A DNA stretch of 49,246 bases from Rhizobium sp. Q54 (lineage in GTDB: Bacteria > Pseudomonadota > Alphaproteobacteria > ATCC43930 > CGMCC-115725): contig CAMATN010000024.1 of the NCBI GenBank assembly GCA_945861155.1, positions 1 to 49,246 of the forward strand, given 5' to 3'. The notes beneath the pieces were generated by a model. The model ran no database searches. It was not told where the DNA came from and was given only the letters and a program-made list of their open reading frames with translations. A program made the translations under genes and the position numbers. Shown here piece by piece: positions 41,031 through 48,452 of the stretch (positions within the stretch are counted from its first letter, which is position 1; each line of letters begins with the position of its first letter).

Positions 41031-41080
41031 GCCGCGAGCCCGTCCTATCGAGTGGTACAAGTAAGACACTTCGTACCCAA

Positions 41081-41147
41081 GTTGTCATCCCGGCGAAGGC
41101 CGGGATCCATGTCTGCCGTGGATACCGGCCTTCGCCGGCACGACAAC
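41081..41147. repeat. Dispersed inverted repeat with 30-nt arms
   Basis: Left arm 41081-41110 (GTTGTCATCCCGGCGAAGGC...) and right arm 41118-41147 are reverse complements at about 26 of 30 positions. It directly abuts the surviving end of the integrase remnant, whose N-terminal part is missing. The core is the same as the palindrome at 4225-4242. Confidence 0.75.
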
Positions 41148-41157
41148 TAAGAGGTGC

Positions 41158-43333: not shown

Positions 43334-44773
43334 ATGAGCACTCTGCCGGAAGACGGTCTGGTCGCGGTCGTCAAGCGCGACTGCCCGACCTGCGTGATGA
43401 CCGCGCCGGTGCTCGGCGAATTGGCGCGGCGCGCCGGCATCATTGTCTACAGCCAGGACGATCCCTCGTTTCCCGACACCGTGGCGCTGCGCGAAAGTGA
43501 TCTCGGGCTCGATATGTCGCACCGCCTCAAGATCGAGATCGTGCCGACCCTGATCCGGCTCGAAGGCGGCCGCGAGGTGGCGCGGACCTATGGCTGGGAC
43601 CGTGCCGAATGGGAGCGGCTCAGCGGCTTGAGCGATCTCGGCCGCGACCTGCCGGCATCCCAGCCCGGTTGCGGCGCCAGGAATATCGAGCCGGGAACTT
43701 TCGAACGCCTCAAGGTGCGTTTCAACGAGACCGGGCTCAAATCGCGCCGGATCGAGATCGGCGGCGACGAGGACGAGCAGGAGGCGATGTTCGCGCGCGG
43801 CTGGTCGGACGGGCTGCCCCTGGTGCCGCCGATCGAGGAGCGGGTGCTGCGCATGCTCGACGGCACCGGCCGCGACCCGCAGGAAGTCATTGGGCTGGTG
43901 CCGCCCGCCCTCGCCGCCGCGACGGTCGAGAAGATCGCGGTCAACGCGGTGATGGCCGGGTGCAAGCCCGAATATCTGCCGGTCGTATTGGCCGCGGTCG
44001 AGGCGGTGCTCGACGAATCCTTCGCGATGCACGGCGTCCTGGCGACGACGATGTTTGTCGGGCCGGTCGTGATCGTCAACGGCGCGGTGCGCCGGCGGAT
44101 CGGCATGAATGCCAAGGGCAACGCGCTGGGCCAGGGCAACCGCGCCAACAGCTCGATCGGCCGGGCGCTGCAGCTGGTCATCCGCAACATCGGCGAGGGC
44201 CGGCCGCAGGAGGTCGACCGCGCGACCCTCGGCAATCCCGGCAAGCTCGGCTATTGCTTTGCCGAGGATGAGGAGGGGTCGTCCTGGGAGCCGCTTTCGG
44301 TCGAGCGCGGGATGAAGCCCGGCGCCTCGGCGGTGACGGTGTTCGCAGGCTTTGGTTTGCAGGGCGTCGTCGACCAGAAATCGCGCGACCCCGAAAGCCT
44401 CGTGCGCAGCTTTGCCGAGTCGCTGAAGGCGGTGCACAACGTCAAGATCGCGCCGGCCTGCGATGCCCTCATTGTCGTTTGCCCGGAGCACGAGCGTACC
44501 TTCCGGGATGCCGGCTGGTCGAAGGCGCGGCTCTATGAAGAACTCTACCGGCTGTGCGAGATCCCCGGCGACGAGTTGGTCGCCGGCGCAAGGGGCATCG
44601 CCGAAGGCGGCCCCGCCTCGCTGGCCGGTAAGACTGTCAACAAGTTCCGCCCGGGCGGCCTCTTGATCGTCCGCGCCGGAGGCGACGCCGGGATGTTCTC
44701 CGGCATTATCGGCGGCTGGTCCGCGAGCGGCGGCCACGGCAGCGTTCCGGTCACCCGCGAGGTGAAACTGTAA
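43334..44773 (+). CDS. Thioredoxin-domain fusion protein, partner of the UGSC selenoprotein
   Basis: A 479-residue protein from ATG 43334 (GGAG at 43323-43326). Residues 1-100 form a thioredoxin-like domain with Cys17-Pro-Thr-Cys20 (VKRDCPTCVMTAPVLGEL) and the cis-proline Pro71 (EIVPTLIRLEGG). The remaining 370 residues are a different domain without a motif I can name. It is rich in conserved-looking segments (GWSDGLPLVPPIEERVLRML, VNAVMAGCKPEYLPVVLAAV, RRRIGMNAKGNALGQGNRAN) and ends GGWSASGGHGSVPVTREVKL. No signal peptide is seen, so it is cytosolic. The selenoprotein gene starts 150 bases downstream on the same strand. I infer that its CPTC pair, the C-terminal domain and the Sec-Gly-Ser-Cys centre work in one redox reaction; the substrate is unknown. 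Confidence 0.7.
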   Translation: MSTLPEDGLVAVVKRDCPTCVMTAPVLGELARRAGIIVYSQDDPSFPDTVALRESDLGLDMSHRLKIEIVPTLIRLEGGREVARTYGWDRAEWERLSGLSDLGRDLPASQPGCGARNIEPGTFERLKVRFNETGLKSRRIEIGGDEDEQEAMFARGWSDGLPLVPPIEERVLRMLDGTGRDPQEVIGLVPPALAAATVEKIAVNAVMAGCKPEYLPVVLAAVEAVLDESFAMHGVLATTMFVGPVVIVNGAVRRRIGMNAKGNALGQGNRANSSIGRALQLVIRNIGEGRPQEVDRATLGNPGKLGYCFAEDEEGSSWEPLSVERGMKPGASAVTVFAGFGLQGVVDQKSRDPESLVRSFAESLKAVHNVKIAPACDALIVVCPEHERTFRDAGWSKARLYEELYRLCEIPGDELVAGARGIAEGGPASLAGKTVNKFRPGGLLIVRAGGDAGMFSGIIGGWSASGGHGSVPVTREVKL

Positions 44774-44786
44774 GGTACGTCTCCGC

Positions 44787-44866
44787 CGTCACCCCCGCGC
44801 AAGCGGGGGTCCAGGGCAACCCGTCGGGACCCGGATCCCTGGATTCCCGCTTTCGCGGGAATGACG
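44787..44866. repeat. Dispersed inverted repeat between the thioredoxin-fusion and selenoprotein genes
   Basis: Left arm 44787-44814 (CGTCACCCCCGCGCAAGCGG...) and right arm 44839-44866 are reverse complements at most of 28 positions. It lies in the 150-base spacer of the presumed operon and could tune relative expression. Confidence 0.8.
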
Positions 44867-44923
44867 CCAAACCGCGGATGCGGCGCCGACTGCCTATCCG
44901 GGTCCGAACCAGAGGAGGTGTCC

Positions 44924-45436
44924 ATGACTGTGCTTCTCGACCCGACCTCGGAGCGAAGTCCGACGATTCGCCCGCGATTACCACGGCCGGACAGCCTCGA
45001 CGGGCTGACGGTCGGCATCCTGGACATCGCCAAATCGCGGGGCGATGTGTTCCTCGACCGCCTCGACGAGCGCCTCCAGGAACGCGGCATCGCGGTCAGG
45101 CGCTACCGGAAGCCGACCAATGTAAGACCGGCGCCGTTGCCGTTGCAGCAGCAGATCGCCACCGAGGTCAACCTCGTCATCGAGGGCCTCAGCGACTGAG
45201 GGTCCTGCATATCGTGCTGTACGCATGACATGGCGGAACTCGAAGCCCGCGGCATTCCAACGGTCGGCGTGGCGACGACCGAATTTATCGAGGGCGCGAA
45301 GGCGCAGGCAAAATCGCTCGGCACCGATCCCGCCCTGGTGTTCATCCCGCATCCGGTGCAGGACCGCACCAACGACGAACTACGCCAGCTCGCCGATGAG
45401 CATTTCGACGCGATCGTCAAGTTGCTGGTGAAGTAA
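44924..45436 (+). CDS. Predicted selenoprotein with Sec-Gly-Ser-Cys (UGSC) motif; in-frame TGA at 45197-45199
   Basis: ATG 44924 follows a strong GGAGG site (44914-44918). After 91 codons, ending NLVIEGLSD, there is a TGA (45197-45199). The same frame then continues open for 78 more codons to a TAA at 45434: GSCISCCTHDMAELEARGIP, then TVGVATTEFIEGAKAQ, to FDAIVKLLVK. Both halves have clean coding character, and the split falls exactly at a U-G-S-C redox motif, known from the UGSC family of (seleno)proteins. Read through, the protein is 170 residues with Sec92 and nearby Cys95, Cys98 and Cys99. A SECIS-like hairpin follows at once (45203-45237). Gene callers will stop at 45199 or start at 45230. 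The fold appears alpha/beta (LTVGILDIAKSRGDVFLDRL). Genes for selenocysteine insertion are outside the window. A nonsense mutation is the alternative. Confidence 0.85.
45200..45237 (+). promoter_or_regulatory. SECIS-like hairpin directly after the in-frame TGA
   Basis: Nested pairs: 45213-45215 CGT with 45221-45223 ACG closing a five-base loop GCTGT (45216-45220); 45208-45210 CAT with 45225-45227 ATG; outer TCC 45203-45205 with GGA 45235-45237. The apical loop starts with G, 17 bases after the TGA, close to the spacing in the E. coli fdhF SECIS. Folding was done by eye, so the exact pairing is uncertain. Confidence 0.55.
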
Positions 45437-45444
45437 AGAAGGCG

Positions 45445-45490
45445 CCCCCACCCTAACCCTCCCCCGCTTGCGGGGGAGGGAAGCGTGCGC
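45445..45490. repeat. Palindromic repeat, intergenic copy of the element found inside the hydrolase gene
   Basis: CCCCCACCCTAACCCTCCCC / CGCTTGCGGGGGAGGG forms a strong hairpin nine bases after the selenoprotein stop and 29 bases beyond the stop of the convergent solute-binding-protein gene. It could end transcription from both sides. It is the sister of the repeat at 11671-11716. Confidence 0.8.
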
Positions 45491-45519
45491 CGGAGCGCAG
45501 GCGGGTATGGGTTGCAGAC

Positions 45520-46884
45520 CTACGACCGCATGAAGCCTTCGAGTTCGGATTCGGCGAAGGCGATCGCCTGGGCGACGGTTTTGCCTTGCTGGGTGCACTG
45601 GGCGACCATCTTCGGGATCGTCGCCTGCGCGAACATCTGGGTGCCGATCTTCAGCGGCGCCGGATAGCCGGAAATGTGCGGGATGACATCGCCGCGCGGC
45701 GGCAGGTGGTAGACCGTGCCCTTCGGGGGCTCGACTTCCTCCCATACCTTGAAATCGGCGAAGCTCTTAAACGCCGGGATGTCGAAGCCGAGGCTCGCCG
45801 TCACCACTTTTTCCTGGACCTCGCGGGTCGAGATGTAAGCCAACAGGCTCTTTGCGGCCGGGATGGCTTTCGAGAAGTTCCAGATGCCCCAGTAGTAATA
45901 GCTGGTCGGGTCCATCCGGCCCTTCGGCCCCTTCGGCGACGGGAAGTGCCAGGTCTGTTCGGCGATTTTCGGAAAATCGCGCTTGGCCACCGCATAGGCG
46001 CTCGGCGGGTTGAAGATCAGCGCGGCCTGCCCCGAGACAAATGCCTTGTTGTTCGAGGCGTTGTCATAGGCGAAGACGCTTTCCGGCATCGTCTTGGCGA
46101 ATTTCTGAAACCATTCGAGCACTTGCCTCGTGGCGTCGGACTTGACGGTCACGTTGCCCTTTTCATCGACGAGTTGCGCGCCGTAGCTGGCGAACACGGC
46201 GCCTTCCATGTTGATCGCGTCGGTGCAGGTGCTCAGGCCGACGCCGAACGGAAACCCGGCCTTTTGGCATTTCTCGGCGGCGGTCAGAAAGGCCTCCCAG
46301 GTCCATTTGTCCTGGAGCTCCTTGTCGGAGGCAACGCCCGCCGGCGCGTACATCTTGGTGATGTCGAGCCCGACATGCTGCTTGAACAGGTCGATGCGGG
46401 CACATGGCGGCAACGACGTGCTGCCGTAGGCGGTCGGCACCGCCATCCATTTGCCGTCGAGCTTGGCGAGGTATTCGCAGGCTTTGGTGGTTTCGCCGTA
46501 TTTCTGGATCAGTGGATTGACGATGTCGTCGACCGGCACGAAATTCTTTTCCTGAGCTCCGACATACCACAGGCGCAGCCCCATGATGTCGTGGCCGGAT
46601 CTGGCCTGCCCTTCCGACATCAAGGTCAAGAGGTCCTTGTCGCCGACCGAGGTGATCAGATCCATGGTCAGCTCGACCTTCTCCTTGGCCGCCCATTCCT
46701 GGCAGATCTTCTGCAAATCTTGCGACGCCCCGGGAACCCAGTGGTCCCAGGCGCCGATCGACAGCTTGCCCGCGGCAAAGGCGCCGCGGACGAACGGAGC
46801 GGCGAGCGAGCTTGCGGCAAAAACGGGCGGGGTAAGCGCGGCGGCCTTCAACACGGTGCGCCGCGTCAACGACGACGTCGACAT
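45520..46884 (-). CDS. Extracellular solute-binding protein, family 1 (Tat-exported), paralogue A
   Basis: A 454-residue ABC-transporter binding protein starting at ATG 46884 after AAGGAGAG. The N-terminus carries a twin-arginine signal (SSLTRRTVLKAAALTPPVFA) with a likely cleavage after GAFAA. The mature part has the family-1 pattern (WDHWVPGASQDLQKICQEWA near the start, then WMAVPTAYGSTSLPPCARID, then AALIFNPPSAYAVAKRDFP). It ends ELEGFMRS. It is clearly paralogous to the gene at 47094-48452 over its full length. No permease or ATPase gene is in the window, so the substrate is unknown; family 1 usually binds sugars or polyols. Confidence 0.88.
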   Translation of the reverse strand: MSTSSLTRRTVLKAAALTPPVFAASSLAAPFVRGAFAAGKLSIGAWDHWVPGASQDLQKICQEWAAKEKVELTMDLITSVGDKDLLTLMSEGQARSGHDIMGLRLWYVGAQEKNFVPVDDIVNPLIQKYGETTKACEYLAKLDGKWMAVPTAYGSTSLPPCARIDLFKQHVGLDITKMYAPAGVASDKELQDKWTWEAFLTAAEKCQKAGFPFGVGLSTCTDAINMEGAVFASYGAQLVDEKGNVTVKSDATRQVLEWFQKFAKTMPESVFAYDNASNNKAFVSGQAALIFNPPSAYAVAKRDFPKIAEQTWHFPSPKGPKGRMDPTSYYYWGIWNFSKAIPAAKSLLAYISTREVQEKVVTASLGFDIPAFKSFADFKVWEEVEPPKGTVYHLPPRGDVIPHISGYPAPLKIGTQMFAQATIPKMVAQCTQQGKTVAQAIAFAESELEGFMRS

Positions 46885-47041
46885 GCGTACTCTCCTTGAT
46901 TGGGCCGGAACGCGTGATCCGGCCGGCTCTGGCGGTTCGGCCTCGTGGTCGAGGCCGGTCGCGCAGAGCCTTAGCACGGCCGAACGAGATTGTCAGCGCG
47001 CTCGCGCCGGCAATTGGTCCAATTTCGGAGGGTGTCGCCTA

Positions 47042-47093: not shown

Positions 47094-48452
47094 CTACGAT
47101 CGCATAAAGCCCTCGATCTCGTGCTCGGCAACCGCCATCGCCTGCTCGATCGTTTTTTTCTGCTGGGTGCAGGCGGCGATCATCTTCTGGATCGTGGCCT
47201 GGGCGTACATCTGGGCGCCGAGCTTCGGCGGCGCCGGGTAGCCGGCCACATTGACCTCCGCGTCGCGGCGCGGCGGGAAGTTATAGTTGGTGCCCTTGGG
47301 CGGCGCCGCTTCCTTCCACACCGGAAAGTCCATCATGCTCTTGAAGGGCGGGATGTCGAAGCCGCTGCCGGCGGTCACCAGCTTCTCCTGGGATTCGCGG
47401 GTCGTCATGAAGCGCAGCAACGCCTTGCCGGCTTCCTTGTTCTTGGAGAATTGCCAGATACCCCAATGCGAATAGGTACCCGAATCGAACCGGCCCTTGG
47501 GCCCCTTTGGCGAATTGAAGGTCCACAATTGCTCGGCGATCTTGGGGGCGTCGCGCACTGCCACCCCCCAGGCCGAGGGCGGGTTCATGATCATCGACCC
47601 CTGACCCGATACCAGGTACTTGTTGTTCGAGGCATTGTCCCAGGCGAAGGTGGCTTCCGGCATGAATTTCACCAGCCGCTGGAACCATTCGAGCGCCTGC
47701 CTTGTGGCGTCGTTGCGGACCGTTACGTTGCCCTTTTCGTCGACCAGCCGGGCGCCATAGGCGCGGAACACCGAGTCGTTGGTGTGGACCCCGTCAGTCG
47801 CGGTGCTCATGCATAGTCCGACGGGATGCCCGCCCTTGAAGCACTTTTCCGCCACGCCGAGGAAGTTTTCCCAGGTCCACTGCTCGCGCAATTCTTCGCC
47901 GCCCTTATCCGCGACCGGATACATTTGGGTAACGTCAAGGCCGGCGTATTTCTTGAAGAGATCGATGCGAGCGCACGGCGGCAGAGCGCTGCTGCCATAG
48001 GCGGTCGGCACGGCGGCCCAGCGCCCATTGATCTTGCCGAGATAGGTGCAGCCGGGCGCCGGCTCGCCGTACTTGGCGATCTGCTCCGTCACCAAATCGT
48101 CGACCGGGACCAGCTTTTCGGCATGAAACGCCGCGTAGAACGGCTGGAAGGTCATCACGTCGTGGCCGGCTCCGGCCTGCGCCTCGGCCGCGACCGCCAG
48201 CGCGAGCTTGTCGCCCTGCGAGGTGATCAGGTCGAAGCTGAGGTCGACCTTCTCCTTGTCCGCCCAATCCTGGGTCATTTTTTGGATGACCTGGCTGGCG
48301 CCCGGAACCCAATGGTCCCAGATCCCGACGCTCAGCTTGCCGGCGGCGTAGGCGCCGCGGACGAACGGCGCTGTCAGCGAGCTTGCCGCCAAAACCGGCG
48401 GGGTCAGCGCGGCCGCTTTCAGCACGGTACGCCGCGTCAACGACTTCGACAT
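47094..48452 (-). CDS. Extracellular solute-binding protein, family 1 (Tat-exported), paralogue B
   Basis: A 452-residue paralogue of the preceding protein, starting at ATG 48452 after GGGAGG. It has a Tat signal (SLTRRTVLKAAALTPPVLA, then GAYAA) and the same framework (IWDHWVPGASQVIQKMTQDW, WAAVPTAYGSSALPPCARID, ending EIEGFMRS). The pair share the ends and core but differ in the presumed ligand region (for example RLWYVGAQEKNFVP in A and QPFYAAFHAEKLVP in B), suggesting related but distinct ligands. Each has its own ribosome site and about 200 bases of spacer, with a strong hairpin between them. Confidence 0.88.
   Translation of the reverse strand: MSKSLTRRTVLKAAALTPPVLAASSLTAPFVRGAYAAGKLSVGIWDHWVPGASQVIQKMTQDWADKEKVDLSFDLITSQGDKLALAVAAEAQAGAGHDVMTFQPFYAAFHAEKLVPVDDLVTEQIAKYGEPAPGCTYLGKINGRWAAVPTAYGSSALPPCARIDLFKKYAGLDVTQMYPVADKGGEELREQWTWENFLGVAEKCFKGGHPVGLCMSTATDGVHTNDSVFRAYGARLVDEKGNVTVRNDATRQALEWFQRLVKFMPEATFAWDNASNNKYLVSGQGSMIMNPPSAWGVAVRDAPKIAEQLWTFNSPKGPKGRFDSGTYSHWGIWQFSKNKEAGKALLRFMTTRESQEKLVTAGSGFDIPPFKSMMDFPVWKEAAPPKGTNYNFPPRRDAEVNVAGYPAPPKLGAQMYAQATIQKMIAACTQQKKTIEQAMAVAEHEIEGFMRS

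Follow-up and report, generated by a model that had tools for sequence, protein, structure and literature searches.

A UGSC family selenoprotein of Rhizobium sp. Q54 and its thioredoxin-fused partner as a possible two-subunit reductase

The UGSC family of selenoproteins has been in print since at least 2008 and was counted among the commoner selenoprotein families of ocean metagenomes (PMC2398784), and a 2026 review places it among the families whose functions are largely uncharacterised (PMC13188914). A thioredoxin-like fold has been suggested for the family (PMC2398784), and Global Ocean Sampling data yielded a UGSC/Unknown_1 fusion, in which UGSC is joined to a conserved unknown domain (PMC2398784). 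In Geodermatophilaceae, a swap of UAG for UGA as the selenocysteine (Sec) codon of UGSC has already been published (PMC5330540). The other systems with which UGSC can be compared are GrdB and PrdB; glycine/proline reductase makes and then cleaves a bond between selenium and carbon, helped by thiols (PMC10298544), and the UxxCxxC motif of GrdB (PMC13188914) is also present in UGSC. No description of a thioredoxin-fused partner of UGSC was found in the portions of the open-licence PMC literature that were covered.

The window, by which we mean the whole stretch of 49,246 nucleotides analysed here, contains one UGSC gene with the following features.

44924 to 45436, + strand: CDS of the UGSC selenoprotein, 170 aa with Sec92 encoded by the recoded TGA (one profile match spans this codon)
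45197 to 45199, + strand: UGA Sec codon (codon 92) of a U-x-x-C-x-x-C motif (sequence; relatives)
44911 to 44918, + strand: AGAGGAGG, the ribosome binding site for UGSC (direct reading)
45211 to 45229, + strand: SECIS-like hairpin, 6 bp, loop UGUAC (fold; conservation in relatives)

From the ATG at 44924 the frame reaches TGA at codon 92 and stays open to the TAA ending at 45436, and with TGA translated as Sec the motif at residue 92 reads U-G-S-C-I-S-C-C, including Cys98-Cys99. The read-through protein scored 141.7 bits against NF041046 (NCBIfam; cutoff, 125) and 141.2 bits against PF24696 (Pfam; cutoff, 25), the latter in one stretch, residues 4-169, that crosses Sec92. An earlier note on this DNA had pointed to a strong ribosome site, to an in-frame TGA with coding sequence onward to 45436 and to Gly-Ser-Cys after the TGA with CxxCC nearby, and had proposed the family name; each of these was borne out, the name by both curated models. 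In itself the gene is ordinary, a plain UGSC family member that agrees with NF041046/PF24696 in its sequence and length as well as in the UGSC motif with its in-frame TGA, and shows no difference from them. The locus differs from the Global Ocean Sampling fusion in that UGSC and its partner are separate genes here. It has the family and the Sec site of the UAG-decoded Geodermatophilaceae UGSC but uses UGA, and the tRNA-Sec of its genome has the anticodon UCA.

What the earlier note missed is the gene upstream, and its association with UGSC is the new element of the present analysis. The features of this partner gene are as follows.

43334 to 44773, + strand: partner gene (479 aa, Cys form) with a thioredoxin domain and an unnamed core (ORF; profiles)
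43334 to 43630, + strand: N-terminal thioredoxin domain, partner residues 1-99 (profile E, 5e-4; structure Z, 9.9)
43382 to 43393, + strand: CPTC redox motif of the partner, Cys17 and Cys20 (81-row alignment)
43670 to 43672, + strand: Cys113 codon TGC of the partner, within PGCGA; TGA in 8 relatives (alignment)
43772 to 44770, + strand: partner core domain, residues 147-479 (common to the neighbour of the second UGSC gene)
44774 to 44923, + strand: 150-nt partner-UGSC spacer containing a strong palindrome whose repeat cores lie at 44794 and 44846

A profile built from the partner alignment (A4) matched PDB thioredoxins over the N-terminus (E, 5e-4), structural comparison by VIA placed the same region with thioredoxins (Z, 9.9; rmsd, 1.8; 85 aligned), and 67 of 81 partner members matched TIGR01068 at an E of ≤1 (best, 1.7e-5), below its whole-protein cutoff. 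Cys17 is present in 80/81 rows and Cys20 in 81/81, so that both the fold and the CxxC motif of a thioredoxin are found. Cys113 and Cys210 are conserved in 81/81 rows and Cys308 in 78/81. The core of ~330 residues had no convincing Pfam or NCBIfam match, only scattered weak ones. Since the thioredoxin domain filled the Foldseek and VIA listings, the structure searches barely probed the core, and a match of the partner to class-I fumarase (E, 6e-3; prob, 0.57) was too weak and was set aside. The core shares 38% identity over 339 aligned positions with the protein upstream of a second UGSC gene in the same genome; that protein is without the thioredoxin domain and without equivalents of Cys210 and Cys308.

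We searched 385 genomes of the class, including that of the window (G000), scoring the top 8 first-look candidates per genome for UGSC and the top 5 for the partner. UGSC (98 matches) and the partner were found in an identical set of 38 genomes (Fisher P = 2e-53, a value that ignores the relatedness of the genomes). With the partner as query, which makes the search independent of the Sec site, at least 575 relatives were confirmed. The best 80 of these were kept as named loci and represent the thioredoxin-fused type nearest the query rather than a random sample. UGSC was found in 75 of these 80 loci, on the same strand as the partner in 72 of the 75, with <60 nt between match edges in 56 of the 72. 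Partner and UGSC lie on one strand 3.9 kb apart in L088 and back to back in L095, L097, and L098. In the sequence around L081, L116, L125, L126, and L127, UGSC was absent; the contig of L081 ends 183 nt past the partner match. One UGSC locus (L142) had no partner within 11 kb, and its genome (G065) has a partner match elsewhere. Taken over these genomes, co-occurrence and gene order make it very probable that UGSC and the partner are a functional pair.

In five loci (L133 to L136 and L143), UGSC and the partner share a single reading frame interrupted only by the Sec TGA; given these in-frame fusions, the Unknown_1 domain of PMC2398784 may be the partner core. Four loci (L134, L136, L137, and L144) have UGSC followed by two partner-core copies, and in L134 and L136 the first copy is fused in frame to UGSC, which suggests a three-domain variant. 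selA and/or selB occur within 10 of the 80 partner loci, and in L060 and L093 profile matches confirmed what these genes are. Beyond these, none of the recurring neighbours in the 22 largest neighbour clusters of the 80 loci names a substrate; the remaining clusters consist of clade-specific genes or are antisense shadows. Next to the pair, the minus strand of the window encodes two neighbouring extracellular solute-binding proteins (SBP_bac families) at 45520-46977 and 47094-48452, and such genes are absent among the 22 largest clusters. The spacer between partner and UGSC contains a strong palindromic intergenic element at 44794-44859, which a 30-nt inverted repeat at 41080-41148 resembles.

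The structural model of UGSC (pLDDT, 93.6; pTM, 0.88) is a five-stranded alpha/beta domain with Sec92 between strand 84-90 and helix 93-108. Such a strand-helix junction is a usual place for a nucleophile. Structural matches were flavodoxin-, TIR-, CheY-, PurE-, and Rossmann-like, with no close relative and no thioredoxins among the matches listed. The top VIA match, 8s7v_H (Z, 12.3; rmsd, 2.6; 126 aligned), was set aside, being close to a designed protein (Z, 11.2). The predicted structure thus does not support the thioredoxin-like fold of PMC2398784, without formally excluding it.

Among 69 UGSC members, 55 weakly matched TIGR01917 (GrdB; best E, 8e-6) and 2 matched TIGR04483 (PrdB), and Pfam GRDB was not among their matches. 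Residues 77-150 of the window protein align to positions 332-400 of the 431-position TIGR01917 profile with 18.2 bits (cutoff, 602.2). UGSC differs from GrdB and PrdB in falling far below their cutoffs, in its length of 170 aa against a 431-position profile, and in having a thioredoxin-fused partner with no GrdE/PrdA-type model among its matches, a missing match being weak evidence. Considering the weak likeness to the glycine-reductase selenoprotein B, we favour a thioredoxin-fed, GrdB-like reductase; by analogy, reductive cleavage of the GrdB kind specifically may be what the pair performs, a proposal that we make tentatively. Elsewhere in the genome, contigs C173, C43, and C72 (L254, L260) carry three C-terminal matches to the GRDB family (PF07355) with no in-frame stop.

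A possible alternative, though less likely than not, is that the same pair works as a generic thiol oxidoreductase or peroxide/disulfide reductase, with O-O, S-S, or S=O bonds reduced by Sec92/Cys95 and no carbon bond cut. The thioredoxin fused to the partner would suit such an enzyme, UxxC is frequent among proteins of this kind in the table of PMC13188914, UGSC is listed there with Trx-fold proteins, and a thioredoxin-like fold is suggested in PMC2398784. However, the UGSC model and its listed matches are flavodoxin/CheY-like alpha/beta, GrdB-type selenoprotein B is the only frequent remote NCBIfam family of UGSC, and conservation of the 330-aa core in the partner hints at one particular substrate. 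It is improbable that Sec92 and the conserved cysteines instead bind a metal or organometal and that the pair detoxifies or traffics metals. Metal binding has been proposed for other Sec families (PMC13188914) and the conservation of Cys113, Cys210, and Cys308 would accommodate it, but the recurring clusters of neighbours included no recognisable gene for metal resistance, and the thioredoxin domain points to electron supply.

As the earlier note had anticipated, a standard annotation (table 11) splits the UGSC gene into two short ORFs, 44861-45199 and 45230-45436. Changes at first, second, and third codon positions between the window and L055 number 22/16/50 upstream of the TGA and 15/7/42 downstream, and third positions are the most changed on both sides in comparisons with four relatives (L054 to L057), which indicates that both halves are coding in one frame. 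Among the 98 UGSC matches of the class, 93 have an in-frame TGA and 5 have none; four of the latter are full length and have Cys at the site (motifs CGSC, CGSC, CGSS, and CGLC), and the fifth is a fragment (profile positions 2-77) that stops short of it. The earlier note had looked to relatives for Cys or Sec at residue 92, as found here, and had held that homologues ending at residue 91 would speak against it; full-length homologues run beyond that residue. The second UGSC gene of the genome, L009 (G000:C142:5855-9364), also has TGA and the same hairpin core. With TGA in 93/98 class matches and Cys in the four full-length exceptions, a sequencing error at the TGA is very unlikely.

Beside the partner, the Sec codon is TGA at 73 sites, TAG at 2, and Cys at none (75 sites in 74 of the best 80 loci, L072 contributing two and L068 being cut off before the site), and TGA or TAG at this position spans six phyla. 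Both TAG sites, L077:6656 (Blastococcus) and L114:6656 (Geodermatophilus), are from Geodermatophilaceae and show the published UAG form; in both genomes the best tRNA-Sec match has the anticodon CUA (labelled Pyl by ARAGORN). This joint exchange of codon and anticodon is a strong natural test that the site is Sec. U92, C95, and C98 are invariant as UxxCxxC in 69/69 rows of alignment A3, which comprises the window and 68 of 71 loci (L085, L097, and L098 were omitted as near copies, after L053, L068, L077, and L114 had been dropped as cut or TAG). A reading in which translation really ends at the TGA, or the TGA is erroneous, and 45230-45436 is an unrelated short ORF is what a table-11 listing shows, but it is next to impossible against a profile match that crosses the TGA, third-position bias on either side, TGA or TAG kept in relatives of six phyla, and a full Sec machinery.

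This machinery was sought in the genome of the window (4.88 Mb, 226 contigs, 96.87% complete), where the search for selA, selB, selC, and selD that the earlier note had called for returned all four: a tRNA-Sec with the anticodon UCA (67.9 bits, RF01852) and selD, selA, and selB, above cutoffs and side by side on contig C40. The next four RF01852 matches (L002 to L005, ≤51.3 bits) are Ser and Leu tRNAs, so a score just above the family cutoff is no proof of tRNA-Sec. Because a Ser tRNA of this genome reaches 51 bits, a threshold of 60 bits was chosen. In a panel covering 50 of the 80 partner loci, the family cutoff was exceeded in 48/50 genomes and a match of >60 bits was present in 46/50, the four below 60 bits being G389, G403, G406, and G424. 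Genome-wide reassignment of TGA (e.g., code 4), with codon 92 as Trp, can be discounted: uvrD and prmA within the window end in TGA, so that TGA is not generally sense in this genome, the relatives examined have TGA, TAG, or a Cys codon at the site, and selA, selB, selD, and tRNA-Sec(UCA) are present. By these sequence criteria, 44924-45436 almost certainly encodes a real selenocysteine protein of the UGSC family, and it is highly likely, if a little less so, that it is both this and the functional mate of the upstream partner.

A bacterial SECIS is a hairpin just downstream of the UGA whose apical loop has a guanosine as its first or second base. In the window, the stem UCGUGC/GCAUGA pairs 45212-45217 with 45223-45228 around the loop UGUAC (45218-45222), which begins 18 nt past the TGA, and the hairpin fits this definition both in position and in having a G among the first two loop bases. 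The SECIS-like hairpin claimed in the earlier note is therefore present, at 45212-45228, but its loop has G second and not first as had been stated. The fold check proposed there had a similarly divided result: the stem forms, but as a single sequence the fold is unremarkable (61 nt; z, -1.58; 15/200 shuffles fold equally well). A seventh stem pair, 45211/45229, is A-C in the window and is unpaired in 15/70 distinct rows, and an Rfam scan of 44800-45500 gave no match up to an E of 1.

The hairpin becomes convincing only through comparison across relatives. Over 70 distinct rows, 96.1% of stem cells are paired (shuffled mean, 95.4; sd, 0.2; 0/500 as high) and three stem pairs show two-sided changes. 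Pair 24/36 joins the third base of a Ser codon, replaced by Thr in three rows, to that of a His codon; it is GC in 35 rows, GU in 30, AU in 4, and other in 1. The stem slid by +2 has a covariation score of 0.115 versus 0.104, yet only 51.6% of its cells are paired, and RNAalifold kept five of the original stem pairs on the same alignment. Loop positions 2-3 (G, U) are invariant in 75 rows. Support from compensatory change is modest because the protein sequence constrains the same site, and codon choice around the hairpin, taken over 72 distinct rows, supports its conservation independently. At Ser +5 only TCG and TCA occur (69/69), versus all six codons at Ser +2; Cys +6 is TGC in 70/72, versus 51/72 at Cys +3; and codon +7 ends with T in 72/72.

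The partner may itself be a selenoprotein in some lineages. Among the best 80 loci, L117:5322 and L125:5340 have a TGA at the Cys113 site and then continue to full length, and both genomes have tRNA-Sec(UCA). For each of these two loci, 389 genomes were drawn from the surrounding order (the two sets overlap for the most part) and the top 4-8 candidates per genome were scored, which gave 18 full-length thioredoxin-fused partner matches. Eight of these have one in-frame TGA, one per genome (G385, G386, G1121, G1002, G1175, G1032, G1148, and G980, the first two being those of L117 and L125; loci L117, L125, L228, L230, L232, L233, L235, and L236), a count that leaves out three rows with stops (G968:C251, G902:C1, and G1100:C37). 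The TGA is at the PG-U-GS site in 8/8, versus PG-C-GS in the other partners. On a tree of 96 rows made by a quick method with SH-aLRT support only (omitting L209, a copy of L117; L234, a copy of L125; and L237, a fragment), the fewest Cys/TGA changes are two, with a seven-member clade (SH-aLRT, 99) and L236 (G980) apart.

In the seven, L-E-P-G-V-A-E is encoded as CTC GAG CCC GGG GTG GCC GAG (the exception is GCT in L235). Codons +1, +3, +4, and +12 vary; +13 and +14 are fixed too, so the codon constancy is partly shared descent. The 24-nt fold CUCG-(A)-GCC-CGGGGU-GGC-CGAG is present in 6/7, with a near variant in L235; a 42-nt fold keeps the hairpin in 4/7, and a 57-nt fold keeps it clearly only in L209 (the L117 copy) and L228. 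L236 has, in other letters, a GC-rich hairpin at the same place (GCUGCC-GGG-GGCAGC). A SECIS after the partner TGA is thus plausible. A TGA-type UGSC gene lies near 6/8 TGA-type partners, the exceptions being L234 (the L125 copy) and L235. In the class of L117, no further Sec-type partner was found outside that locus's own genome among the top candidates scored per genome. TGA flags on partner matches of the class-wide search were set aside; the one worked out, in G053, proved to be the terminal stop. The part of the 119-family table of PMC13188914 that was consulted does not have the partner among its families. The TGA-type partner is, on this comparison, a candidate new selenoprotein family with two apparent origins.

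Comparison of sequences establishes the Sec site, its machinery, the conserved hairpin, the gene association, the thioredoxin domain, and the Cys/TGA exchange at position 113, from which a mechanism can be proposed by analogy for the thioredoxin-fed, GrdB-like reductase. SelB and tRNA-Sec(UCA) would decode UGA codon 92 under the guidance of the following hairpin, and UGSC and the partner would form one redox enzyme. We infer that the partner core would hold a small substrate, which Sec92, as a nucleophilic selenolate, would attack in the manner of glycine/proline reductases, and that the selenium adduct would be resolved by Cys95 or Cys98. Electrons would come from the thioredoxin domain through its CxxC, and Cys/Sec113 would act as a relay or resolving residue. 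As a whole, our proposal is a tentative one: that two paired selenoprotein families, UGSC and the PG-U-GS partner (the Cys form here), may make up a widespread thioredoxin-fed reductase, a distant relative of glycine/proline reductase in which both subunits contribute catalytic residues.

New here are the close tie of UGSC to a thioredoxin-fused partner, the TGA forms of that partner, which seem to have arisen twice, and a putative link to GrdB-type chemistry. For selenoprotein catalogues the partner would be a new entry, and a gene caller halting at TGA would cut the copies of eight genomes. With a partner, the thioredoxin fused to it as a likely electron donor, and Cys/Sec113 as a second redox residue, UGSC would pass from an orphan family to an assayable two-subunit enzyme.
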